From: Ruminococcus sp.
GTDB lineage: Bacteria; Bacillota; Clostridia; Oscillospirales; Ruminococcaceae
NCBI GenBank assembly: GCA_017543335.1
Contig: JAFYGE010000035.1
Span: forward strand, 1-64,000
Reading direction: 5' to 3'
DNA: 64,000 nt
In this document: one piece after another, positions 23,361 to 45,643 of the stretch
Numbering within the stretch: the first letter of the stretch is position 1
How the letters are laid out: each line of letters opens with the position of its first letter
Notes under the pieces: generated by a model
Told to the model about the DNA's origin: nothing
What the model saw: the letters and a program-made list of their open reading frames with translations, nothing else
Database searches by the model: none
Made by a program: the position numbers and the translations under genes

Positions 23361-24272
23361 TCAATCGTAAAGTCCTGTACTGAAATAGCGGTCGCCACGG
23401 TCAGGGAATACTGTTACAATATTTCCTTTAGTTCCGCTTTCTATGAGTTTAACTACCGCTGCCATAGCAGCTCCGGAAGACGAACCTGCAATTATTCCCT
23501 CTGATTTTGCAAGCAAACGAGCTGTATCGAACGCTTCTTTATCATTTATTTTTATAACTCTGTCCACAAGGGACATATCCATAGTTTCAGCAATGAAATC
23601 ATTTCCGATACCTTCTATATTGTAGTCACTGTGCTCACCGCCGCCCATTGTAGAACCTACCGGATCAGCGAGTACTCCCTTTGCATCCGGAACTCTCTCC
23701 TTGATGTAGCGAAGTATACCTGTGTAAGTTCCGCCGCTTCCTGCACCTGCAACAACGTAGTCTATCTTTCCGTCAAGGGATTCAAATATCTCACGACCTG
23801 TAGTCTCGTAGTGAGCAAGCGGATTGCTCTGATTTTTGAACTGCTCAAGTGATATTGAATCCGGTATCTGAGCTTTAAGTTCTTCGGCTTTTGCAACAGC
23901 TCCGAGCATTCCCTTTTCACGTGGAGTGTTTATTACCTCAGCTCCGAGTGCTCTGAGCAATGCCTGCTTTTCAGCTGAAAACTTTGTAGGTACTACAAAT
24001 ATTATACGGTATCCACGGTTAAGTGCGGCAAATGCAATTCCAAGACCGGTGTTGCCGGCTGTAGCCTCAACGATAGTACCTCCTTTTTTTAGAAGTCCTT
24101 TTTTCTCAGCATCGTTTATCATGTAAAGACCTGTTCTGTCCTTAACGCTTCCGGAAGGATTGTAAAACTCCAGTTTTGCAAATACGTTAACTCCGCTGTT
24201 CTGAACGATATTTCCAAGTCTTACTAATGGAGTATTTCCTATAAGAGCCTGCATGGAATCAAAATAATTCAT
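23361..24272 (-). CDS. Cysteine synthase family protein (CysK or MccA-type cystathionine beta-synthase)
   Basis: 303 residues, a fold-type II PLP enzyme. Key segments are IGNTPLVRL, the PLP lysine in PSGSVKDRTG, the substrate loop ATAGNTGLG, the phosphate-binding GSGGTYTG, and SSGAAMAA. It could make cysteine from O-acetylserine and sulfide, or cystathionine from O-acetylserine and homocysteine. The gene order methyltransferase, cystathionine lyase, this gene recalls the Bacillus yrrT-mtnN-mccA-mccB operon, which favours the MccA role. It is the last gene of the operon, 10 bp behind its neighbour. Family firm; exact reaction uncertain. Confidence 0.85.
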   Translation of the reverse strand: MNYFDSMQALIGNTPLVRLGNIVQNSGVNVFAKLEFYNPSGSVKDRTGLYMINDAEKKGLLKKGGTIVEATAGNTGLGIAFAALNRGYRIIFVVPTKFSAEKQALLRALGAEVINTPREKGMLGAVAKAEELKAQIPDSISLEQFKNQSNPLAHYETTGREIFESLDGKIDYVVAGAGSGGTYTGILRYIKERVPDAKGVLADPVGSTMGGGEHSDYNIEGIGNDFIAETMDMSLVDRVIKINDKEAFDTARLLAKSEGIIAGSSSGAAMAAVVKLIESGTKGNIVTVFPDRGDRYFSTGLYD

Positions 24273-24282
24273 AATATTTACC

Positions 24283-25443
24283 TCACTTTATCTCTGCTTT
24301 TGCGATAGCCTGTTCAATGTCTGCAAGAATATCCTCAATGCTTTCAATGCCGACTGAAAGACGGATAAGTCCGTCAGTGATGCCGACCTTCTTGCGGATG
24401 TCAGCAGGAATTGAAGCGTGTGTCATTGTTGCAGGATGGCATACAAGAGACTCAACTCCGCCAAGACTTTCAGCGAGCGAGACAAGTTCAAGGCTCTCAA
24501 AAAACACTCTTATGTCGTAATTTTCATGAAGCTCAAATGAGATCATCGCACCACCGTTTTTTGCCTGTCTGCGGTTGATCGCATATCCCTGACTGCTTTC
24601 AAGTCCAGGATAATATACGTTCTTTACTGCCTTGTGAGCTGAAAGGTACTCAGCTGCTTTTTGAGCATTATAAACGTGTCTGTCCATACGGACTGCAAGA
24701 GTTTTTATACCTCTGATAAGCAGGAATGAGTCAAATGGTGCGAGAACTCCGCCAGTCGAATTCTGAATAAATGCTATCTGCTCAGCAAGCTCCTTTGTGC
24801 TTACTACTGCAAGTCCTGATACTACGTCACTGTGACCGCCAAGATATTTTGTTGCACTGTGAACTACTATATCAGCTCCGAGTTCAAGCGGTTTCTGCAA
24901 GTATGGAGTCATAAAAGTATTGTCAACGATAACGAGTAAACCGTGCTTGTGAGATACTTCTGCAACTGCTTTTATATCGGTAACAGTCATAAGCGGATTT
25001 GCCGGACTTTCTATAATAACTGCCTTAACATCATCTGTTATCTGACTTTCATATACTTCAAGATCAGTTGTATCTGCAATAGTGTAATTAATAGAAAAAT
25101 GATCAAATACTTTATTGAGAAGTCTGAATGTACCGCCGTATACATTGCTTGAAATGAGTACTCTGTCGCCGCTGTGGAGCAGACTGAGTACTGCTGTGAG
25201 TGCTGCCATTCCGGATGCAAATGCAAATCCTGCAACTCCGCCTTCAAGCTCAGCGATAAGTGCTTCAAGAGCTTCTCTTGTCGGATTTCCTGTACGTGAA
25301 TACTCATATCCACGCATTTTACCAAGTCCATCCTGCTTGTAAGTTGAAGTCTGATAAATAGGAACATTAACTGCTCCTGTACGTTCGTCGATGGAGATAC
25401 CTCCGTGTATAAGTGCTGTTTCAGTGTTTGTAAATTTACTCAT
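24283..25443 (-). CDS. Cystathionine gamma-lyase/synthase family PLP enzyme (MccB-like)
   Basis: 386 residues of the Cys/Met metabolism PLP family. It shows PIYQTSTYKQD, YEYSRTGNPTREALE, the PLP lysine in VHSATKYLGGHSDVV, and SLGGVESLVCHPA. Members split cystathionine into cysteine, ammonia and 2-oxobutyrate (gamma-lyase) or make cystathionine (gamma-synthase). In an operon with an MccA-like protein and a SAM methyltransferase, reverse transsulfuration to cysteine is the better fit. It is the middle gene, with 12-bp and 10-bp gaps to its neighbours. Expression is probably governed by the cysteine attenuator upstream of the first gene. Confidence 0.87.
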   Translation of the reverse strand: MSKFTNTETALIHGGISIDERTGAVNVPIYQTSTYKQDGLGKMRGYEYSRTGNPTREALEALIAELEGGVAGFAFASGMAALTAVLSLLHSGDRVLISSNVYGGTFRLLNKVFDHFSINYTIADTTDLEVYESQITDDVKAVIIESPANPLMTVTDIKAVAEVSHKHGLLVIVDNTFMTPYLQKPLELGADIVVHSATKYLGGHSDVVSGLAVVSTKELAEQIAFIQNSTGGVLAPFDSFLLIRGIKTLAVRMDRHVYNAQKAAEYLSAHKAVKNVYYPGLESSQGYAINRRQAKNGGAMISFELHENYDIRVFFESLELVSLAESLGGVESLVCHPATMTHASIPADIRKKVGITDGLIRLSVGIESIEDILADIEQAIAKAEIK

Positions 25444-25455
25444 AATAATTCTCCT

Positions 25456-26352
25456 TTATTCATAATCATAGCCTGCGGTATAAGTTGCCGAGATCAGGCT
25501 CACATTTTCAAAAGCTTTCATGCCGTCCTGTCTGCCGCTGAAGTATTCAGTCTGCACCTTTTCAGGCGGCATATACGTATCTATCTGGAATCCAAGCGAA
25601 TAGAGTGCTCGTGAAACTTCATTGTAATCAAATCCGCCACGCATTACTTCACCGAGAGATTCCGTTATCTCTGCAAGTTTCTGTACCCTTCTTGGGAAAT
25701 CACCGCTCTTTATCGGATAATCAAAAACTACCGCACTTCCAAGTGAAGAAAGTTCCATCATTTGACGTAGTGTGTCAGTAAACACATCAAGAGTGAGGTA
25801 ATAAGAAACTCCGAGTATACTGAAAAAAGTTTTTTTGCTTGGATCAAAACCTGCTGATATAAGCTTATCACACATTCGCTCACGTTCAAAATCGACTGGG
25901 ACAAAGTGTACGTTTTTAGGGATATTCCAGCCAAGCTCGTCAATTCTTTCAAGCTTGTAACGCTGTGTATCAGGATGATCTATCTCAAATACTGTGATAT
26001 TCTCATTATCGTTTCTGAACGAAAAAGTATCCGAACCCGCACCGCATATCACATATTGTATATCGCCATATTCAGCTGCAAATTTACGAAGTCTTACTTC
26101 ATTGAAATGAATTCTTGAAAGAGGTATCGAAGCAAAATACTCGTTTATTATCTGCTCTGTATCCTCCTTTGAAAATCTATATATTCCGTCAAAACCGCTG
26201 CTTATCAGGTCGTAGATACTGTCATATTCCTCCTTACCCATGAAATCATAGGCAAGGTAATCGTCATAGATCTTCTGACGTGCCTTGTTAGAGTGCCATG
26301 CTCTTACGAAAGCACATATCTTAGCTGTGACGCTTTCTCTCTCATCTACCAT
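25456..26352 (-). CDS. SAM-dependent methyltransferase, leucine carboxyl methyltransferase-like family
   Basis: 298 residues resembling the LCM/Ppm1-like methyltransferase family. SAM-site segments include YVICGAGSDTFSFR and VFEIDHPDTQRYKLERI, followed by HFVPVDFER and FSILGVSYYLT. The methyl acceptor is unknown. It is the first gene of the cysteine operon; in Bacillus a methyltransferase (YrrT) holds the same place in the reverse-transsulfuration operon, feeding S-adenosylhomocysteine recycling. YrrT is from a different subfamily, so this is an analogy. The start is ATG at 26352 after CGGAGG, with a transcription attenuator just upstream. Confidence 0.75.
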   Translation of the reverse strand: MVDERESVTAKICAFVRAWHSNKARQKIYDDYLAYDFMGKEEYDSIYDLISSGFDGIYRFSKEDTEQIINEYFASIPLSRIHFNEVRLRKFAAEYGDIQYVICGAGSDTFSFRNDNENITVFEIDHPDTQRYKLERIDELGWNIPKNVHFVPVDFERERMCDKLISAGFDPSKKTFFSILGVSYYLTLDVFTDTLRQMMELSSLGSAVVFDYPIKSGDFPRRVQKLAEITESLGEVMRGGFDYNEVSRALYSLGFQIDTYMPPEKVQTEYFSGRQDGMKAFENVSLISATYTAGYDYE

Positions 26353-26370: not shown

Positions 26371-26482
26371 AAAAATGCGGAATGCTCAACACATTCCGCT
26401 CTCAGCTAAACAAACTGTTCCCATACTCATTGACATCGATAAAAAGTGCAGTACTGTTGGGCATGGATATGCGAAATATGTC
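26371..26482 (-). promoter_or_regulatory. Cysteine-responsive transcription attenuator (antiterminator and terminator)
   Basis: On the minus strand GCGGAATG (26392-26399) and CATTCCGC (26377-26384) form a terminator stem followed by six T, 19 bp before the methyltransferase start. The segment GACATATTTCGC (26471-26482), inside the leader ORF, pairs over 12 bases (three G-U) with GCGGAATGTGTT (26388-26399), the terminator's 5' arm. The two folds exclude each other. The antiterminator arm begins about 20 bases after three Cys codons, so a ribosome stalled there leaves it free. Confidence 0.8.
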
Positions 26483-26528
26483 TATATTCTTTCATATTCA
26501 TACAACAACATATCATGTACTTGAACAT
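26427..26528 (-). CDS. Cysteine leader peptide (33 residues) of the transsulfuration operon
   Basis: A short ORF starts with ATG at 26528 after a strong AAAAGGAG Shine-Dalgarno and ends in TGA at 26427-26429. It begins MFKYMICCCMNMKEY. Residues 7-9 are encoded by three consecutive TGT codons, and Cys recurs at 27 and 32. It lies between a consensus promoter and an intrinsic terminator ahead of cysteine-synthesis genes. This is the classical layout of ribosome-mediated attenuation: scarce Cys-tRNA stalls the ribosome and favours read-through. The peptide probably has no function of its own. Several Met codons (1, 5, 10, 12) may add methionine sensing. Confidence 0.8.
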   Translation of the reverse strand: MFKYMICCCMNMKEYRHISHIHAQQYCTFYRCQ

Positions 26529-26580
26529 CTTTAGCACTCCTTTTCATCGTTTTCATAGTATTCCTACTGGAACAATATGA

Positions 26581-26609
26581 ATCATACCATACTATTCATA
26601 CTTTGTCAA
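26581..26609 (-). promoter_or_regulatory. Promoter of the cysteine operon
   Basis: On the minus strand TTGACA (26604-26609) and TATGAT (26581-26586) are 17 bp apart, about 50 bp before the leader ORF. The rest of the 26353-26692 gap holds the leader ORF, the attenuator and a CCTATAT/ATATAGG hairpin at 26648-26664. Confidence 0.7.
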
Positions 26610-26692: not shown

Positions 26693-27613
26693 TTATCTCT
26701 TCCACCTTAGAAGACTGCTTTGAAGTTTGTTGAACAGGAACGTTACTCCTATAACTACAAAACCTATAACAAGAAGACCTGTAATTGTACGTGTATAGTC
26801 ACCGAAATCGGAATAATATTTCACATAATATCCCATTCCGTCCTTAGCTCCTATCATCTCGGCGGATGTTAGAAGTATGAATGAAACGCTCAGTCCCTGA
26901 TTGCATCCGAGGAATATCTGCTGCAGCGAAGCCGGAAGTATAACTCTGAAAAGCATCTCTGGTTTGCTTACGTTGAGCACCTTTGCTGAGTCAATTATTT
27001 TCTTGTCGACTCCAAGAACACCGCTCATAGTACCTGCAAATACGGGCCAGAATGTTGCGAGGAATATAACAAATACTGATACAGACTTGAAAGACGGTAA
27101 AAGTGCGATACCGTATGGGATATACACTATCGGAGGTATCGAACTGAAAAACTTTGTGATGTATGTTGCAGCACTTCCTATTCTCGCACTCCAACCAATA
27201 AACAGTCCAAGAGGAACTGCGATCACTACTGCAAGAAAGAAACCTTTAAGCGTAGTTCTCAGTGAACTTTTTATGTTTATAAAGATCTTATCTTTGTCTA
27301 AAACAAACTGGTGTATGACCTTTCCCGGTGCAGGAAATAACAAATCATTAAGATAGTTGTACTTAGCTGTTGCAAGACTCCATACTGCAAGAAGAACATA
27401 TAAAAATCCTGCAATATCCACGAGCAATGCCAGACTTTCTTCTTTTTTGATTATCGCAGATGCCGCAAGTACTATAACCTCAACACCAACTGCAAAGCTT
27501 ATAAGTGAGTTTGTGAAAACATCCTTTGTAGACTGGTCGGGGAGAAATTGTATCAGGATCAATGCGATAAACAGCAAATGTGCTATGCGGAGATACCTCT
27601 TTTTAATCGTCAT
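26693..27613 (-). CDS. ABC transporter permease, nitrate/sulfonate/taurine type
   Basis: 306 residues with about six to seven hydrophobic segments and the binding-protein-dependent permease (EAA) loop near DSAKVLNVSKPEMLFRVILP. The FPAPGKVIHQF segment before the core is typical of SsuC/TauC/NrtB permeases. It is the last of three genes, overlapping the ATPase by 4 bp. The substrate is not determined. Transport of a sulfur compound is inferred from the cysteine operon next door and the Cys-Cys leader ORF at the operon start. Confidence 0.85.
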   Translation of the reverse strand: MTIKKRYLRIAHLLFIALILIQFLPDQSTKDVFTNSLISFAVGVEVIVLAASAIIKKEESLALLVDIAGFLYVLLAVWSLATAKYNYLNDLLFPAPGKVIHQFVLDKDKIFINIKSSLRTTLKGFFLAVVIAVPLGLFIGWSARIGSAATYITKFFSSIPPIVYIPYGIALLPSFKSVSVFVIFLATFWPVFAGTMSGVLGVDKKIIDSAKVLNVSKPEMLFRVILPASLQQIFLGCNQGLSVSFILLTSAEMIGAKDGMGYYVKYYSDFGDYTRTITGLLVIGFVVIGVTFLFNKLQSSLLRWKR

Positions 27614-28428
27614 AATACCACCTCATCTCCACCGATACGCTCGGCAATATCGTTGTAGAGAAGTGAGAGGAGCCTGTTGCGGAATTTTGCGTATTCATCA
27701 GTTTTTACCAGTTCCGCACGGCTGCGTGGACGCTCGAAAGGTACATTTACGATCTCATTTACTGTTCCGGGATGTGCAGTCAGTACGACTATTTTATCTG
27801 AGAGAAGAATAGCCTCATCGATATCATGAGTTACAAAGACAACTGTCTTACGCTCCTCAACGCCGTCGCCCTCCCAGAGGTTAAGAAGAAGCTCCTGCAA
27901 TAATACACGATTCTTAGCATCTATAGCACTAAACGGCTCATCCATGAGAAGGATCTCTGTATTCATTGCCAAAGCTCTTGCTATAGCAGCACGCTGCTGC
28001 ATACCGCCTGAAAGCTGTGAAGGATACTTACTGCCGAAACCTTTAAGTCCAACCTTAGTGAGAAACTCCTCTGCTATCTTTCCACGCTCACTGCGTTTTA
28101 CATCGTGACGTGACTGCTTGATGCCAAATTCTATATTCTTTTTAGTAGTCATCCACGGGAACAGTGAGTAGTGCTGGAACACTACTCCCCTTTCTGTACC
28201 TGTTCCACGAAGTTCCTTACCATCTATCTGTACAGTGCCGCCTGCCGGAGTATAAAGTCCCTCAAGAACGCTGAGAAGAGTTGACTTTCCGCATCCGCTC
28301 GCACCTATTACACTTACAAATTCACCCTTGCCAACTCCGAAAGAAACGTTATGCAAAGCGTTGAAGCTCTTTTTATTTTCTATGTAGTTGACTGTAAGGT
28401 CTTTTATCTCAATTTTATTCGTAGTCAT
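27610..28428 (-). CDS. ABC transporter ATP-binding protein, nitrate/sulfonate/taurine type
   Basis: About 272 residues, an SsuB/TauB-like ATPase: Walker A GASGCGKST, the Q loop in VFQHYSLFPW, the signature LSGGMQQR, Walker B ILLMDEPFSAID and the H loop FVTHDIDEA. It energises the adjacent permease. The start is ATG at 28428 after AAAGGAG; it overlaps the end of the binding-protein gene by 14 bp. Confidence 0.9.
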   Translation of the reverse strand: MTTNKIEIKDLTVNYIENKKSFNALHNVSFGVGKGEFVSVIGASGCGKSTLLSVLEGLYTPAGGTVQIDGKELRGTGTERGVVFQHYSLFPWMTTKKNIEFGIKQSRHDVKRSERGKIAEEFLTKVGLKGFGSKYPSQLSGGMQQRAAIARALAMNTEILLMDEPFSAIDAKNRVLLQELLLNLWEGDGVEERKTVVFVTHDIDEAILLSDKIVVLTAHPGTVNEIVNVPFERPRSRAELVKTDEYAKFRNRLLSLLYNDIAERIGGDEVVL

Positions 28429-29584
28429 CAAAATGCTCCTTTAAAGATTTATATATCTCGTCATCTGGATTTTCCTTTAATATGCTTTCGAGAGCCTGCT
28501 TGTATATATCAGTATTGTAATACGGCTCTATATCGTAATCATCTGTGTATCCAAGCTCTATGATAGTATCTTTAAGTGTGAGAGTACCCTTCTTATCCGG
28601 ATCAGGACTTGATACACTGTATCCGCCGTAAACCTCAGTATCTATGAAGTCTTCTTCAATATCTATATACTTCTTTACATCATCAATTGTTCCGTCGTGG
28701 TCGGTCTGAGTAAAGTGATAAGCCTTGATGAATGCACGTTCAAGTGCTTTATAGGTATTAGGAGAATCACTCAGTGAAGATGTCTTTGCGACCTGACGGC
28801 AGCATGGCTGATTTTCGAGAGCCTTTTCATGTGCACAGTAGTAAACTACTTTGTAGCCCTGAGACTTTGCAAGTGATGCATATGGTGAGTAAACTGAAGC
28901 CGCATCTATTGACTGATTGAGCAGTGCAGCATATGCATCCTTCTGACTGTCGAAGTAAACTATGTTAACTTCGTCATCGCCTTCTCCGATCTCAATGCCT
29001 GCGTTTTTAAGAAGTATTTGCAGCTCAGCATCCTGAACGCTGTTCTTTACTGATGCAACATTTCTGCCTTTGAGTATCTCAACGCCAAGCTCATCCTCGT
29101 CAGCGTACTCTGACTTGATAACATATCCGTGACCATTTGTCATTGCTCCGCCAAAGATCGAAACGTCATGTCCCTGACTCTGGAAAGTAAGTGTTGGAAC
29201 TGAACCAATGAAAGCAACATCAAGCTTATCAGATTCAAGTCCGTTAACAAGCTCTGCTGCACTTGAGAACTGTGTGAGTGAAACATCAAGTCCCTCTTCT
29301 TCAAAGTAGCCTTCCTCCTCAGCAACAAAAGCAAGCAGATGAGCTGTTGAATTGAGGTAACCAATGTTTATATCGCTTTTTTCAAGAGAACCGCCCTCAT
29401 CATCGCAGCAATCACTTGAACCGTCTCCGCAGCAGTCCGGAATGTCTGAACCTTTTTTATCTTCACAGCAGTCTGAGCTGCTTGAAGCTTTTTTAGAAGA
29501 CGAAGAGCTGTTATTTAATCCTGCACATCCTGTAAGTAATGAAAGAGATGCGAGTACTGAAATTATCTTTGCTGTTTTATTCAT
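28415..29584 (-). CDS. ABC transporter substrate-binding lipoprotein with a Cys-rich linker
   Basis: About 389 residues from ATG at 29584, which fits AAGGTGA; the GTG three codons earlier does not. A lipoprotein signal ends in LLTGC, giving a lipidated Cys20. A Ser-rich linker follows, with three Asp-Cys-Cys repeats (SSDCCEDKK, IPDCCGDG, SSDCCDDE). The rest is an SsuA/NMT1-like domain: NIGYLNSTAHLLAFVAEEEGYFEEEGLDV, then VAFIGSVPT. Two more Cys are in QPCCRQV. This many cysteines is unusual for a protein expected under sulfur shortage. A metal or redox role, or metal-linked cargo, is possible. Confidence 0.85.
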   Translation of the reverse strand: MNKTAKIISVLASLSLLTGCAGLNNSSSSSKKASSSSDCCEDKKGSDIPDCCGDGSSDCCDDEGGSLEKSDINIGYLNSTAHLLAFVAEEEGYFEEEGLDVSLTQFSSAAELVNGLESDKLDVAFIGSVPTLTFQSQGHDVSIFGGAMTNGHGYVIKSEYADEDELGVEILKGRNVASVKNSVQDAELQILLKNAGIEIGEGDDEVNIVYFDSQKDAYAALLNQSIDAASVYSPYASLAKSQGYKVVYYCAHEKALENQPCCRQVAKTSSLSDSPNTYKALERAFIKAYHFTQTDHDGTIDDVKKYIDIEEDFIDTEVYGGYSVSSPDPDKKGTLTLKDTIIELGYTDDYDIEPYYNTDIYKQALESILKENPDDEIYKSLKEHFDDYE

Positions 29585-29648
29585 ATTAATCACCTTTTAT
29601 ACCTTTAATCAAAATTATTTTTCTATTTTCTTTAGTTCACTTAATGTC

Positions 29649-29699
29649 TCAACAACATCGCATTCGCTCTGAATTGGTGATATATCTGTAATTATTCAT
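29649..29699 (-). CDS. Short leader peptide ending Cys-Cys, upstream of the transporter operon
   Basis: A 16-codon ORF, MNNYRYITNSERMRCC, starts with ATG at 29699 after AGGGAGTG and ends TGT-TGT-TGA, 64 bases before the lipoprotein start. It lies downstream of a plausible promoter. No strong terminator follows, so control could work on translation: ATCACC in codons 7-8 can pair with GGTGAT of the lipoprotein Shine-Dalgarno. Cys codons in leaders of two neighbouring operons argue for a common cysteine response. Confidence 0.6.
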   Translation of the reverse strand: MNNYRYITNSERMRCC

Positions 29700-29997: not shown

Positions 29998-32955
29998 ATG
30001 GACAACAAATCTAATCACCTTTGGAAAAAAGGTATAGCCGCTGCACTTGCTCTTACACTAATATGCGGTGCTGCACCATTAAATCAATTCAGCAGCACTG
30101 CTTTAAACAGCATAACTGCTGAAGCCGCTGAAACTTCATCTGCATCAAAAAAATCATACATCGAACCTGTTTTCACTTTCAAACAGGATTTTGATAATTT
30201 CTGGGTGAATGCTTTTATACCTGTGAGTGATACCAAAGGTTTAAAAGTAACCGTAAACGGCAAGGCAGTTCCGACATACATTACAGAAGACGGAATCAAC
30301 GCTCTTATCAAAACTGAACCTAAGAAAATGGGCGACGAATTTACTTTGACCGTTAAAAAAGATAAAAAAGTAATATCCGAAAAGAAAACCACCGTCAAGG
30401 ATATTGCAATGAATATCATCAACGCTGACGAAAACACCAAAGAAGCTAAAGCTTTTAAATGGATGCTTCATTATGGTGCAGCAGCTCAGAACTACTTCAA
30501 TTATAAAACTGATTCACTTGCTGATGCTGAAGTAACAAATACCCCTATACAAGGTATTCCGTCTTTATACTCATTAAAATTCGACAATAAGGCAATGAAC
30601 GACTATCTGAAAAGTATTGATGCACCTGTTGTTTACGACGGAATGAGCGTTATTTTTGACGCTGATATCGGATTAAAAATAATTTTCAGTCCTGCTGAAA
30701 ATGTCGACTTCAAAACAGCTGAGGATTTTTTCAATAAAACTATAGATTTTGCAGATTCTGATTATATAAAAGAAGTAAACGGAAATAAGTTCTGTATTAT
30801 AAAAAAGAACATCTCACTGTATAATATCTATACACAATATCCATTACAAATTGGAAAAGCTTCAAGAAGTGTAAGTCTTATGATGTATATAGCTAATGCT
30901 TACACTGAAAAAAAGGATACTGAAGAACACAAGAAGCTTAAAGAACTTTTACGTGCATTTATGATGTACAGAAACTTCACATCTAATATAAATTATATCG
31001 ACAGAGATATAGTGATCGAATACCCAAAGAACGAAGAAGCTCCGGCAGTAACAACTTCAGTTTCATCCCCTGTCATTACAACAACCCTGACTTCAACATC
31101 AGGTAACAGCAGCGTAACTTCCACTACATCTAAATCCGATGATAAGACTCCGGAAAGCATAACCACTGTGACTTCTGAACCAAAGGACGCTATTAATTTT
31201 ACTCCGACTAAAGATAAAGGTGTGTATATTTCAGATTATTCATTTGATAAGGACGAAAACATCAGTGTATACCACTTCGATGATCCGAATAAAGCTTTAT
31301 TAGTCAGATACACACCTACCTGTACACTCGGAAAATTGATAGATACGCATACTTTTGAAATTCTAAAGGATATAAATCTTTCTAAAGAATATACATTATA
31401 TTCAGAAAAAAATTATATACAAATATATAACGACAATACAAAAATAACTGAATTCTATGATTCGTCATTCAACCTCGTAAAGGAATTCAAACAGACGGAT
31501 GGATGCGAAATCATAGCTTACAGTAATGATCTGAACTATTTAGCTATTCAGGATTATAAAAATGGCTTACAATTTATTTATGATACAATAAATGATAAAA
31601 AAATCCTATTGCCGGAAGAATTTAACAGTGGATACATAAGAGGTTTCATGGACGATCATTTTGTTATCGGAACCAACGAAAATTTATATGCTTATTATCT
31701 TGACGGCTCCTATGAAATACTATCTCAATACCCTGAATTCTGGGGACAGGATTATCAGAAATATGATATTATAAAACACAAAAACAATATGACAATTTAC
31801 TCAAGAGAAACCGGAGAGAATATTTGTGTAGTTCACGATACCGATAAAGATGAATATTTAACAGCATATTTAGGTGACCGTTTTATAACAACTAAAAACA
31901 AATATTTAACATTCTATGACCGTGTAAATAACAAAAAAAGTCAGAAATATGCTCTTAACAATTTCTATCTGATGAATGTGACCGATAATAATACCGTATT
32001 TGGTACAGCAATATTCAATAACATAATGTACTATGTAAAAATAGACCTCAATGAGATCGATTATAATATCGACTGCACTATTGATATTCCAGTCGAAAAA
32101 GAATCCGGATTTGAAACTTTCTTCAAGAAACCTGAAACATCTGATCCTGAACTCCGTTCGATCATTGATGAACTGGACGAAAAATATAATGTTGAAGTTT
32201 CTTTTGAACTTGCTGATGAGCTCGATCATTCCATAGATTATTATGATACAGATGATTTCACCGGTGATAAAGTAGCAATACTCAATGATATAAAAGATTA
32301 TCTCAGCCTATGGCCAGAGGATATCTGCCGTGAAATAACCGGTGACCCTGATATGAAAGTCTGGATATATATATGCGATAAAATAACACCAAATGTTAAC
32401 GATTCGGAAATAATAGAACCTGCGGCATATGTTACAAAGTACCTTGATAATCCAACTATTTGTACAGTTGGATTCGATAATAATACCGACAGATTCCTTA
32501 ACACATTCTCTCACGAATTCATACATCTTCTTGATTTCCAGCTTACAAATGATCAAATTATGGAATGGGACACACTCTCTCCGGAAGATGCTTACATGAA
32601 TTCCTATGCTAATTTCTACGGACTCAAAAAATACGTTGATTATTATACCGGTGACACCGACATCTATTTTTCAAGAGATTATGGACGTACAAACGCTGAA
32701 GAAGATCGTGCTACTATAGGTGAAGTACTTTTTGATTCATATGTTCAGGAAGCAAGAGCAAAGTCGCTTGACTTTGAAGGCACAAAGGCTAAATGCGAAA
32801 CTCTTTGCAGATTCATCCGTGAAAACTATCCTTGCCTTGCTTCTGTACCTGTAGGCGAGCTTTATCTCGAAAAGGCTATGAATATGCAGGCTGAGGATTT
32901 CACACCAATAAATTATGAAGATTACGATTTCGGCTATGGCTACGGTCAGGGCTGA
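29998..32955 (+). CDS. Large secreted zincin metalloprotease with Thr/Ser-rich linker
   Basis: 985 residues. A signal peptide occupies about residues 1-43. Residues ~48-340 form a duplicated domain, each half a beta region followed by a helical FKWMLHYGAAAQNYFNY-type segment. Residues ~350-395 are a Ser/Thr-rich linker. Residues ~400-690 look like short beta repeats, perhaps a propeller. The C-terminal domain has H839-E-F-I-H843, the zincin HExxH, with Glu901/902 in NAEEDRATIGE as a likely third ligand. No membrane anchor or dockerin is visible. The start is ATG after AGGAGG. A 44-codon ORF follows by 23 bp. Substrate unknown; extracellular or surface proteolysis is inferred. Confidence 0.75.
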   Translation: MDNKSNHLWKKGIAAALALTLICGAAPLNQFSSTALNSITAEAAETSSASKKSYIEPVFTFKQDFDNFWVNAFIPVSDTKGLKVTVNGKAVPTYITEDGINALIKTEPKKMGDEFTLTVKKDKKVISEKKTTVKDIAMNIINADENTKEAKAFKWMLHYGAAAQNYFNYKTDSLADAEVTNTPIQGIPSLYSLKFDNKAMNDYLKSIDAPVVYDGMSVIFDADIGLKIIFSPAENVDFKTAEDFFNKTIDFADSDYIKEVNGNKFCIIKKNISLYNIYTQYPLQIGKASRSVSLMMYIANAYTEKKDTEEHKKLKELLRAFMMYRNFTSNINYIDRDIVIEYPKNEEAPAVTTSVSSPVITTTLTSTSGNSSVTSTTSKSDDKTPESITTVTSEPKDAINFTPTKDKGVYISDYSFDKDENISVYHFDDPNKALLVRYTPTCTLGKLIDTHTFEILKDINLSKEYTLYSEKNYIQIYNDNTKITEFYDSSFNLVKEFKQTDGCEIIAYSNDLNYLAIQDYKNGLQFIYDTINDKKILLPEEFNSGYIRGFMDDHFVIGTNENLYAYYLDGSYEILSQYPEFWGQDYQKYDIIKHKNNMTIYSRETGENICVVHDTDKDEYLTAYLGDRFITTKNKYLTFYDRVNNKKSQKYALNNFYLMNVTDNNTVFGTAIFNNIMYYVKIDLNEIDYNIDCTIDIPVEKESGFETFFKKPETSDPELRSIIDELDEKYNVEVSFELADELDHSIDYYDTDDFTGDKVAILNDIKDYLSLWPEDICREITGDPDMKVWIYICDKITPNVNDSEIIEPAAYVTKYLDNPTICTVGFDNNTDRFLNTFSHEFIHLLDFQLTNDQIMEWDTLSPEDAYMNSYANFYGLKKYVDYYTGDTDIYFSRDYGRTNAEEDRATIGEVLFDSYVQEARAKSLDFEGTKAKCETLCRFIRENYPCLASVPVGELYLEKAMNMQAEDFTPINYEDYDFGYGYGQG

Positions 32956-42749: not shown

Positions 42750-45380
42750 TCACTTTATAAATCCGGCAACGATCTCTTCAGCCTGAGCAAGAGCCTCATC
42801 TATCTTAGCAATATCGCCTGCACCAGCCATAGCACTGTCAGGCTTTCCGCCGCCTTTACCGCCTGTAACAGCTGATACGTTTCTGACTATCTGACCTGCA
42901 TTTGCACCCTTCTTTACAGCTCCCGGTGTACATACGCAGAAGAATGTACCTTTTTCACCAACTGTACCTGCAAAGAGAGCAACGATGTCCTCGCCCTTGT
43001 CCTTTACACTGTCTCCGAGCTTTCTGAGTGCATCCGGAGCAGTACCGTCAAGTCTTGCTGCAACGAACTTAACACCTTTTACATCCTTAGCATTATCGAA
43101 TAATGCTGCTGTCTTAGAGTTAGCTATCTGCTGTGTAAGACTTTCTATTTTCTTGTCCTTATCCTTTGACTCAGCTGCAACTGCTGCACACTTCTCAGGA
43201 AGCTCAGTGATATTTGCAAGCTTGAGTGCCTTTGCTGATCTGATTATAGAATCCTTGAAACCGTTGAGAAGCTCAAGTACACCAAGACCGGTAACAGCCT
43301 CGATACGTCTTACTCCGGCAGCAACCGAGCTTTCGGATACTATCTTGAAAAGACCTATCTGTGAAGTATTTGATATATGAGTACCTCCGCAGAACTCTAC
43401 AGACTTATCAGCTGTAACAACTCTTACAGTTGAGCCGTATTTTTCTCCGAACAGAGCCATTGCTCCGAGCTTTCTTGCTTCTTCGATAGGCATTTCCTGC
43501 ATTGTTACAGGTATTGCACTCATTATCTCAGCGTTGACTATCTCTTCAACCTTTGCTATTTCTTCGTCAGTCATAGCACTGAAGTGGTTGAAGTCGAAAC
43601 GGCAAGCCTTTTCATTAACGAGCTGTCCAGCCTGATGAACGTGATCACCAAGCACCTGACGGAGTGCATACTGAAGAAGGTGAGCTGTTGTATGGTTACG
43701 CATAATAGCCATTCTGCGTTCTTTTTCAATTTCAGCGAATACGTGGTCGCCCTTTGAGATGCTTCCCTGCTCGATAGTAGCGATATGGAGGAAATGTCCC
43801 TCTGACTTGATAGTATCGTCAACAGAAGCTATGCTTGCATCCTTGATAAGAGCACCTGTATCGCCTACCTGTCCGCCGCTTTCAGCGTAGAATGGAGTTA
43901 CATCGAGAACAATAACTACATCGTCGCCCTCAACAGCTGTCTCGACCTCTACACCGTCTTTGTATATAGCAAGTACTTCTGAATCATTAGCGGCAAAGTC
44001 AGTATATCCTGTGAATATAGTAGCAGGAGCATCTACCTTTATGCTATTATCAGCCCATGATGAACCAGCCTTTGCAGCGTGGTCAGCTTTAGCTCTTGCT
44101 CTCTGTTCTTTAGCGAGTTCAGTAAAGCGGTCACGGTCAACCTCAAAACCTTTTTCCTCACAGATCTCGACTGTAAGGTCTATCGGGAATCCATATGTAT
44201 CAGAGAGCTTGAATGCATCGTCACCTGAGAGTACTTTCTTACCCTCAGCCTTTAAAGCATCAGTGAAACCGTTGAGAAGTTCAGTACCCTTATCGATAGT
44301 CTTAGCGAAAGCCTCTTCTTCAACGCCGATTATTTTCTTGATGTAGTCACGCTTCTCAGCGAGTTCAGGGTAAGCACCTGCGTTCTCGTTGATAACTGTA
44401 TCGCATACATCGCAGAGGAATGGCTTTGTGATACCTAAGAGTCTGCCGTGACGAGCTGCTCTTCTGAGGAGTCGGCGGAGAACGTATCCTCTGCCCTCAT
44501 TTGAAGGCATGATACCGTCACCTACCATGAATGTTGTGCTTCTGATATGGTCAGTGATAACACGGAGTGAAACGTCCTTCTTAGCATCTTTTTTATACTC
44601 AACACCGGCAATGCGGGAAATATGCTTCATAATATTCTGAACAGTATCTACCTCAAAGATATTGTCGACGCCCTGCATTGCACAAGCAAGTCTTTCGAGT
44701 CCCATACCTGTATCGATATTCTTGTTCTTCATTTCCTCATAGTGACCGTTTCCGTCACTGTCGAACTGGCTGAAAACGAGGTTCCATATCTCGATAACAC
44801 GGTCTATATCGCTTGCCTGCTCGAAGTTCTCGAAAGGACCGTAGGCTTCACCACGGTCAAAATGTATCTCTGAACATGGACCGCATGGACCTGAACCGTG
44901 CTCCCAGAAGTTATCCTTCTTACCAAGACGGATTATTCTGTCATGAGGGATACCGATATGTTTTTCCCAGATCTGTTCAGCCTCGTCGTCGCTTTCAAAA
45001 ATAGTGATCCAAAGGCGATCTGCCGGTATTTCGAGTTCTTTTGTAAGGAATTCCCAAGCCCACTCGATAGCCTCTGTCTTGAAGTAATCGCCGAAAGAGA
45101 AGTTACCGAGCATCTCGAAATATGTACCGTGACGAGCTGTCTTACCAACGCTCTCTATATCAGGAGTTCTGATACACTTCTGACAAGTTGTAACTCTCTT
45201 ATTCGGAGGTGTAGCCTGTCCGAGGAAGAATTTTTTCAGAGGTGCCATACCTGAGTTGATAAGAAGAAGGCTCTTATCCCCCTGAGGTACAAGTGATGCA
45301 CTTGCCATTCTTGTATGATTTTTGCTTTCAAAGAAGGAAAGATACTTTTCACGAAGATCGTTAAGTCCTGTCCACTGCAT
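42750..45380 (-). CDS. alaS: Alanyl-tRNA synthetase
   Basis: 876 residues, full length. The class II catalytic core runs from FLSFFESKNHTRMASASLVP to GMGLERLACAMQG. The editing domain has the Zn ligands HTTAHLLQYAL and CGGTHISNTSQIG. The Gly-rich C-terminal DHHA1 region ends GGKGGGKPDSAMAGAG. It attaches alanine to tRNA-Ala and clears mischarged Ser and Gly. The start is ATG at 45380 after AAAGGAG. Expression is governed by a T-box leader. Confidence 0.98.
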   Translation of the reverse strand: MQWTGLNDLREKYLSFFESKNHTRMASASLVPQGDKSLLLINSGMAPLKKFFLGQATPPNKRVTTCQKCIRTPDIESVGKTARHGTYFEMLGNFSFGDYFKTEAIEWAWEFLTKELEIPADRLWITIFESDDEAEQIWEKHIGIPHDRIIRLGKKDNFWEHGSGPCGPCSEIHFDRGEAYGPFENFEQASDIDRVIEIWNLVFSQFDSDGNGHYEEMKNKNIDTGMGLERLACAMQGVDNIFEVDTVQNIMKHISRIAGVEYKKDAKKDVSLRVITDHIRSTTFMVGDGIMPSNEGRGYVLRRLLRRAARHGRLLGITKPFLCDVCDTVINENAGAYPELAEKRDYIKKIIGVEEEAFAKTIDKGTELLNGFTDALKAEGKKVLSGDDAFKLSDTYGFPIDLTVEICEEKGFEVDRDRFTELAKEQRARAKADHAAKAGSSWADNSIKVDAPATIFTGYTDFAANDSEVLAIYKDGVEVETAVEGDDVVIVLDVTPFYAESGGQVGDTGALIKDASIASVDDTIKSEGHFLHIATIEQGSISKGDHVFAEIEKERRMAIMRNHTTAHLLQYALRQVLGDHVHQAGQLVNEKACRFDFNHFSAMTDEEIAKVEEIVNAEIMSAIPVTMQEMPIEEARKLGAMALFGEKYGSTVRVVTADKSVEFCGGTHISNTSQIGLFKIVSESSVAAGVRRIEAVTGLGVLELLNGFKDSIIRSAKALKLANITELPEKCAAVAAESKDKDKKIESLTQQIANSKTAALFDNAKDVKGVKFVAARLDGTAPDALRKLGDSVKDKGEDIVALFAGTVGEKGTFFCVCTPGAVKKGANAGQIVRNVSAVTGGKGGGKPDSAMAGAGDIAKIDEALAQAEEIVAGFIK

Positions 45381-45420: not shown

Positions 45421-45643
45421 CGCAAAAAAAGCCCCGCCGCCAATGGGACGAAGGCTTTCGTGGTACCACCCAAATTCAAAAGAGCAGAGCTCTTTTCTCA
45501 AGCATCTTTAACGCAGATATACGCTCCGGTTTTCCGAAGGGGCTCCGGGTAAGCACCTGTTTTGCACATGAAAGCTCGCACCAGCCGCTTTCTCTCTGAA
45601 ATGTGCTGCTGAACAGTCAGTCCCATCAAAGCCGTACATTATT
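45421..45643 (-). promoter_or_regulatory. T-box leader of alaS
   Basis: Read on the minus strand, the leader opens with a stem I region (AGAGAGAAAGCGGCTGGTGCGAGC) and a segment containing GGTGCTTACCCGGAG, where GCT is a plausible Ala specifier codon. The antiterminator bulge GGGTGGTACCACG lies at about 45459-45471. A terminator follows at 45424-45458 with seven T. Uncharged tRNA-Ala would bind and allow read-through. Conserved T-box elements are all present; the exact specifier position is inferred. Confidence 0.9.

Follow-up and report, generated by a model that had tools for sequence, protein, structure and literature searches.

The window, by which we mean the whole stretch of 64,000 nucleotides of Ruminococcus sp. 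DNA analysed here, carries a short leader followed by three genes. The first encodes a SAM-dependent methyltransferase, the second an mccB-like enzyme, for which the best NCBIfam match (NF005810) scores under the curated cut-off, and the third an mccA/cysK-like enzyme. A sequence-only reading of the same DNA had proposed methyltransferase-mccB-mccA-like genes behind the leader, which the family profile matches bear out, as well as a promoter, a 33-codon ORF with Cys codons at positions 7–9, an antiterminator arm and a T-tailed terminator, in an order that we also recover. It gave no strand; all elements of the proposed attenuator lie on the minus strand, where the 5' to 3' order is promoter, palindrome, GGAG, leader ORF, antiterminator arm, terminator with T tail, GGAGG and methyltransferase gene, the GGAGG, located 3' of the T tract, being the methyltransferase's own. 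The elements are:

26581..26609, minus strand: sigma-70-type promoter, TTGACA-17-TATGAT, with 11 of 12 consensus matches and a TG before the -10 element
26561..26572, minus strand: operator-like palindrome TTCCAGTAGGAA, at the expected transcription start
26537..26540, minus strand: Shine-Dalgarno GGAG of the leader ORF, 8 nt before its ATG, conserved in our alignment A2
26427..26528, minus strand: leader ORF MFKYMICCCMNMKEYRHISHIHAQQYCTFYRCQ, 33 codons plus TGA (ORF list, gap pattern)
26502..26510, minus strand: putative control codons TGT TGT TGT (Cys 7–9), with Cys runs recurring in relatives
26471..26482, minus strand: antiterminator arm (arm 2) GACATATTTCGC (covariation; p = 0.02 in the window)
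26437..26450, minus strand: segment able to pair with the leader Shine-Dalgarno region at about 26549..26533 (window folds)
26391..26399, minus strand: arm 3, the 5' arm of the terminator, with which the antiterminator pairs (terminator scan, covariation)
26377..26385, minus strand: arm 4, the 3' arm of the terminator, with the T tract after it (terminator scan, covariation)
25456..26352, minus strand: SAM-dependent methyltransferase (TIGR00027, LCM family; profile matches), operon gene 1
24283..25443, minus strand: mccB-like cystathionine gamma-lyase / homocysteine desulfhydrase (Pfam Cys_Met_Meta_PP)
23361..24272, minus strand: mccA/cysK-like PLP enzyme (best NCBIfam match TIGR01136, just under the curated cut-off)

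The gene set fits a conversion of methionine and homocysteine to cysteine, with the families assigned by homology and the pathway taken from the available part of PMC2940859. The leader of the window folds more stably than shuffled sequence (fold z-score -3.57; none of 200 shuffles equally stable). Upstream on the same strand lies a transporter operon with an ssuA-like binding protein, an ATPase and a permease. Elsewhere in the window, the plus strand encodes a 985-aa protein (29998..32955) with a signal-like start, a Thr/Ser-rich linker and no Pfam match.

At E <= 1e-20, 31 of 396 genomes sampled from the family have a match to the methyltransferase, with the weakest hits at about 30–40% identity and possibly paralogous; within the genus, at E <= 1e-30, the count is 54 of 125. 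A scan of named genomes supplied the loci compared here, the top 80 out of 479 and so a set biased to near relatives, which come from Ruminococcus (many of them R. flavefaciens), Oscillospiraceae, Lachnospiraceae, Eubacterium and Clostridia. In 79 of these 80 the upstream region spans 200 nt or more. The script detects a Cys-rich ORF there in 65 of the 79, always with one or more Cys-Cys; two more were added by eye, L087, which has four spaced Cys and no run and stays outside the set of 66 leaders through the script filter, and L088, which has a longer frame. No such leader was found by script at 12 of the 79 loci. Three of these 12 have, by eye, an mccA-like gene directly upstream of the methyltransferase, eight have a gene like the AMP-binding ligase (Pfam) of L020, either directly upstream (six) or about 230 nt away (two), and in L111 the only Cys-rich ORF ends 199 nt before the methyltransferase. 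Two more distant loci, L024 and L028, have an mccA-like gene before the leader, Cys codons in the loop of a first hairpin and a second, similar hairpin after it, which by eye is a different attenuator layout.

The leader ORF bears the marks of a translated sequence, and its cysteine codons are kept more faithfully than most of the peptide. In alignment A2, which has 39 rows (the window and 38 of the 39 leader-bearing loci of the genus, L074 being excluded; L073 was excluded for its short upstream region), the length is divisible by three (3, 6 or 12) in every one of the 64 gap runs that fall within the ORF, versus 22 of 185 after the stop codon, the remaining 163 having other lengths. Cys makes up 18.7% of the residues over the 66 leaders (282 TGT and 115 TGC codons), with 4 to 8 per leader, and Cys-rich codon runs are retained while the residues outside them drift, apart from an end motif, AQRCC, common to most leaders of the genus; lengths and Cys spacing vary between clades. 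Single Cys codons are missing in some leaders, as in CWYCMC of L041 and CCMQYCC of L065. The conservation that the sequence-only reading proposed to look for is thus present, and no close relative was seen to retain the leader yet lose its Cys codons, the outcome that this reading had named as evidence against itself: all 66 leaders keep at least four. None of six leader peptides tested had an NCBIfam match. A search of the genome by DNA similarity for further copies scored well with the leader itself only, the other 22 matches having E >= 0.068.

Arm 2 starts after a gap of 19 nt from the last Cys codon, and GACATATTTCGC can pair over 12 bases with GCGGAATGTGTT (26399..26388), as the sequence-only reading had it, three of the pairs being G-U. 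The terminator (26399..26377) reads GCGGAATGT-GTTGA-GCATTCCGC, with nine pairs (five GC), a loop of 5 and a T tail; a scan for terminators found this one where chance would give 0.4. Of 200 dinucleotide shuffles of a 54-nt stretch beginning 6 nt 3' of the Cys codons, 2% equalled the antiterminator duplex of the window (p = 0.02), and the duplex reaches p <= 0.05 in 17 of the 40 leaders at genus level and in 7 of the other 26. By automatic picking, 21 of the 40 genus-level leaders, that of the window among them, have the arm starting 20–22 nt past the Cys run. Since these single-sequence statistics are modest, it is conservation that takes the element beyond chance.

In a scan of all column pairs of the 39-sequence alignment, made with no structure given, the top-ranking helix was the terminator, with 11 bp and 95% pairing, and the next was the antiterminator, with 10 bp and 93% pairing. 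The terminator has 96.9% of its cells paired and two-sided changes in 8 of 11 pairs, with a covariation score of 0.371 versus 0.258 for shuffled alignments, and the antiterminator helix of 10 bp has 93.6% of its cells paired and two-sided changes in 5 of 10 pairs, with a score of 0.286 versus 0.250; in neither case did any of 500 shuffles score as high, a comparison that relatedness among the sequences can inflate. Two-sided cells in the antiterminator amount to 6 of 389, while a version slid by +2 columns has 10, yet pairs in only 49.5% of its cells; the leader arm carries codons, and its freedom to change is therefore limited. The compensatory changes that had been suggested as a check are thus found in both helices. 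Outside the genus, L099, L101 and L102, which are near-identical and come from Lachnospiraceae/Eubacterium, combine Cys codons, a 9-bp helix of arms 2 and 3 and an 11-bp terminator in a different sequence.

Folding of the window's leader predicts a clear switch. In the absence of a ribosome the terminator has a predicted probability of 0.99; in the RNA downstream of a ribosome that is stalled at the Cys codons this drops to 0.04, and downstream of one located at the stop codon it is 0.99. With the middle shuffled the stalled value is 0.99, none of 40 shuffles being as low; the minimum-energy fold of the stalled segment retains the antiterminator also when arm 4 is included. The proposal that a stalled ribosome would leave the arm free for antitermination thus agrees with the predicted fold, and by these predictions the leader of the window is clearer than most. 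At genus level, the 40 leaders average 0.64 when stalled versus 0.84 when shuffled, and in 14 of them no more than 5% of shuffles equal or undercut the stalled value. Seven of the 40 (L040, L061, L063, L064, L071, L072 and L076) have a terminator probability below 0.5 even without a ribosome; in all of these except L040 the automatic caller picked a longer hairpin, which depresses their figures; the counts include them. L041 and L086 have no Cys-Cys other than a late one, and the modelled stall was placed there. An earlier pairing measure (means of 0.74 stalled, 0.62 without a ribosome and 0.43 at the stop), which had no control, is not counted as evidence. An equilibrium switch across all clades was rejected, as the 26 distant leaders average 0.91 stalled versus 0.92 shuffled, with 2 of 26 at the 5% level; since folding alone predicts no switch there, kinetic capture of arm 3 before arm 4 emerges would be needed in those clades.

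The start of the leader can itself be paired away. In folds of the window, a helix around AAAAGGAGTGC and GCACTTTTT masks the leader Shine-Dalgarno, and it differs from the helix in relatives, where a conserved hub near the ORF end (mostly TATGCTCAGCGATGTTGC within the genus) is able to base-pair with the start region of the same leader. The start:hub pairing has 98.0% of its cells paired and is invariant, with no two-sided change, and the duplex of the Shine-Dalgarno/start region with the hub reaches p <= 0.05 in 21 of 39 genus-level leaders and 5 of 25 others (p = 0.065 in the window). A helix between the Cys run and the conserved CAGCGATGT hub was considered as an anti-antiterminator and dropped: its nine columns have 93.2% of cells paired and no two-sided change, and it does no better than shuffles, with p <= 0.05 in 1 of 39 genus-level leaders and 3 of 25 others. 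In L099, L101 and L102 arm 2 is enclosed by a 14-bp version of this helix, into which the last part of the Cys run is drawn.

A ribosome covers about 15 nt upstream, and between the end of arm 2 (26471) and the stop codon (26429..26427) there are 41 nt, so that a ribosome at the stop codon would not mask arm 2 in the manner of trp-type leaders. The statement that a moving ribosome covers the arm therefore holds for a ribosome in passing and fails for one resting at the stop, and termination under plentiful cysteine needs either kinetics or a lock that masks the start.

Taken together, the anatomy, its conservation, the coding constraint on the ORF and the covarying terminator and antiterminator are observed, and they lead us to read the leader, with a probability of about 85%, as a ribosome-mediated transcription attenuator whose signal is charged tRNA-Cys. 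RNA polymerase would start at the promoter and a ribosome would follow on the leader ORF. Where Cys-tRNA is scarce, the ribosome would stall at Cys codons 7–9, so that arm 2, which lies 19 nt beyond them, remains accessible to the emerging 5' arm of the terminator and pairs with it; with arms 2 and 3 paired, no terminator would form and the methyltransferase-mccB-mccA operon would be transcribed. Where Cys-tRNA is plentiful, the ribosome would pass, the terminator halves would pair and transcription would stop. After its passage, or without a ribosome, the start region of the leader may fold back on the ORF end, which would hinder re-initiation and hold arm 2 inside a loop. Stalling, the response to cysteine and this start-region lock are the parts that we infer.

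The DNA ahead of the leader suggests a further layer of control. The 1.2-kb scan returned three promoter-like sites against 4.1 expected by chance, so that the promoter stands out through its quality and conservation only: a strict TTGACA/TATAAT-type promoter precedes the leader ORF in 52 of the 66 leaders. A motif of the CCGATAGG/CAGTAGG/CCTATAGG type is present in the 97-nt upstream region of 54 of the 66 (counted without a shuffle control; in one of the 54, L108, it lies far from the start site), and most relatives have the palindrome in the version TTCCGATAGGAA. The palindrome looks like the operator of a DNA-binding regulator, and the conservation of both elements makes it probable that such a regulator acts here too. 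Motifs like CCTATAGG are present at the transporter promoter as well.

That a repressor at the TTCCGATAGGAA-like palindrome is the main control, with the leader real but only tuning it, is the alternative we take most seriously, although we consider it unlikely. Besides the frequencies just given, it can draw on the two Rrf2-family genes above cut-off in the genome of the window, given that CymR, a member of this family, senses cysteine availability according to the accessible part of PMC5015018; a tie between the palindrome and these genes would be our inference from the sequence. No regulator gene is linked to the motif, which was matched to no published site, and a repressor leaves the kept Cys codons, the frame-preserving gaps and the covarying antiterminator unexplained. 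The same covariation weighs on the idea that control is Rho-dependent or purely translational, with the ORF coupling translation to the downstream gene and the hairpin a constitutive weak terminator. Cys leaders without terminators in Actinobacteria, as described in the part of PMC1262725 available, lend it some plausibility, as does the second leader of the same locus, which looks translational (see below), but here the terminator covaries, its 5' arm covaries with the leader arm, and the methyltransferase has a GGAGG of its own after the T tract, all of which makes this reading improbable. Least probable of all, and in our view very hard to sustain, is a functional cysteine-rich small protein (with a metal or redox role) beside incidental hairpins: the high Cys content and the shared AQRCC end speak for it, whereas the peptide drifts outside the Cys codons and end motif, differs between clades in length and Cys spacing, has no NCBIfam match among the six tested and recurs in its position before the methyltransferase.

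The transporter operon upstream is preceded by a short ORF of its own:

29649..29699, minus strand: second leader ORF MNNYRYITNSERMRCC, before the ssuA-like transporter operon; conserved as an ERM-motif ORF
29676..29682, minus strand: TATCACC, a stretch of the second leader ORF with complementarity to the binding-protein gene's Shine-Dalgarno
29588..29595, minus strand: Shine-Dalgarno region AGGTGATT of the binding-protein gene, whose ATG is at 29584..29582
28415..29593, minus strand: ssuA-like substrate-binding lipoprotein of an ABC transporter (SsuA_fam, below cut-off)
28431..27610, minus strand: transporter ATPase, downstream of the binding protein
27613..26693, minus strand: transporter permease, downstream of the ATPase

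The ERM-motif ORF precedes the transporter gene in 34 of the 40 sequences in which this gene could be placed, window included (its start was not found in L061 and L090, and L071, which has another gene downstream, is not among them). By pattern it is absent from L063, L077, L087, L093, L114 and L117, although SERMRCC is visible in the alignment for L063. A Cys follows the ERM motif in 33 of the 34 and Cys-Cys in 18. Pairing of TATCACC and its variants with the Shine-Dalgarno reaches p <= 0.05 against dinucleotide shuffles in 18 of 34 (median 0.0275; 0.13 in the window), and in L068 both sides differ together, AAGCTTTTCGG with CGAAAGGCT. This complementarity and the paired change point to a possible translation attenuator of this sulfonate-type transporter, in which the SERMRC(C) leader would mask the binding-protein Shine-Dalgarno and a ribosome stalled at the closing Arg-Cys(-Cys) codons would open it; as a single Cys, or a Cys after another residue, is common in this leader, cysteine sensing is less certain than for the first. 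The binding-protein lipoprotein itself has a Cys-pair-rich stretch near its N-terminus (29473..29390, minus strand; DCCEDKKGSDIPDCCGDGSSDCCDDEGG), with similar stretches in L039, L067 and L159 and none in the other relatives inspected.

In many relatives both leaders end their ORFs with CGATGT(TG), that is Arg-Cys(-Cys), and in the first leader this element can also pair with the start region, so that it may act as a late cysteine checkpoint after the early one. We tentatively suggest, at somewhat less than even odds, that one locus carries two different cysteine-codon leaders acting at two levels, a transcription stop with such a late checkpoint and SERMRC(C) translation masking. The DNA motif GARCGAATGCGATGT has 18 matches in 15 of 60 genomes; of the seven inspected, four lie before the transporter gene and three (L150, L151 and L157) in another, non-leader context.

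The genome probably senses Cys-tRNA in another way too, by a T-box-like leader directly before cysE, with cysS following (C70:12297-12502, minus strand; L176 2055-2260, minus strand), which scores 79.1 bits, below the 93-bit gathering score. The TGC at the relevant alignment position we take to be its specifier, which makes this leader likely to be Cys-specific. The window also holds an ordinary T-box leader (45441..45638, minus strand; 94.5 bits) directly upstream of an alanyl-tRNA-synthetase gene (45380..42750; Pfam tRNA-synt_2c, tRNA_SAD and DHHA1).

Ribosome-mediated transcription attenuators of the trp/his/leu type are a textbook class, and the first leader shares with them an ORF with cognate codons, an antiterminator that competes for the terminator 5' arm and a biosynthetic operon downstream. 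Its ORF is translatable and has a run of codons for the amino acid thought to be regulated, which enzymes of the mccB and mccA type, by homology, would make; an intrinsic terminator lies between the ORF and the first gene; and in the window and the genus the antiterminator is exclusive with the terminator and has its arm just 3' of the control codons, a trait that is weaker in other clades. It differs from the class in its amino acid, cysteine, in that arm 2 would stay unmasked by a ribosome resting on the stop codon, and in that the start region can pair with a hub at the ORF end. Of the candidate counterparts of the trp-type arm 1 lock, the Cys-run:hub pairing has no two-sided change and is not above shuffles; the start:hub pairing has no two-sided change either, and its duplex with the Shine-Dalgarno included exceeds shuffles in 21 of 39 genus-level leaders.

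Rfam has no family match at the leader, only two chance-level snoRNA matches, and the T-box family RF00230 does not match it. Among published elements, the uORFC-8-2 motif before cysS of Rhodobacterales is, by its description in the available part of PMC8632094, likewise a Cys-codon ORF with a terminator and predicted ribosome-mediated attenuation, but it belongs to Alphaproteobacteria and usually has two Cys codons at 14–15 inside a stem, so that our leader, with three at 7–9 and a different operon, falls outside it. The cysteine leader ORFs of Actinobacteria also have Cys codon runs in a short ORF before cysteine genes; as far as the accessible text of PMC1262725 goes, their Cys codons lie near the stop codon and their terminators are not conserved, in contrast to the early codons and covarying terminator here, which set our leader apart from them. 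Mycobacterial polycysteine ORFs are reported to couple translation to the downstream gene (Canestrari et al. 2020, as cited in the portion of PMC13236596 available). In Firmicutes, whose usual device is the T-box, leader-peptide attenuators are described, in the available parts of the respective papers, for His (hisS/hisZ, PMC2965389) and Leu (S. aureus ilv-leu, PMC5794164), that is for other amino acids, genes and orders.

A further relevant system is the Cys-specific T-box before ubiG-mccB-mccA in Clostridium, which by the available part of PMC2940859 shares with the reading proposed for our leader Cys-tRNA sensing, a methyltransferase-mccB-mccA operon and premature termination, and in which tRNA binds the RNA directly with no leader peptide; the methyltransferase is of the LCM family here and named ubiG there. 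The best-ranked matches of a largely open-access literature, at the level of title and beginning of abstract, include no cysteine leader-peptide attenuator in Firmicutes. Given that a Cys leader with a terminator has been predicted in Rhodobacterales (PMC8632094, in the part available) and that both Cys leaders and Firmicutes leader peptides are in print, the novelty is narrower than the sequence-only reading stated.

In the reading we favour, a leader-peptide attenuator serves an operon of a kind that certain other clostridia place under a Cys T-box. The means of sensing one charged tRNA thus seems to have been exchanged, with target and output kept, and the family offers about 66 natural variants, from rumen and gut bacteria, in which arm position, kinetics and start masking may be probed.
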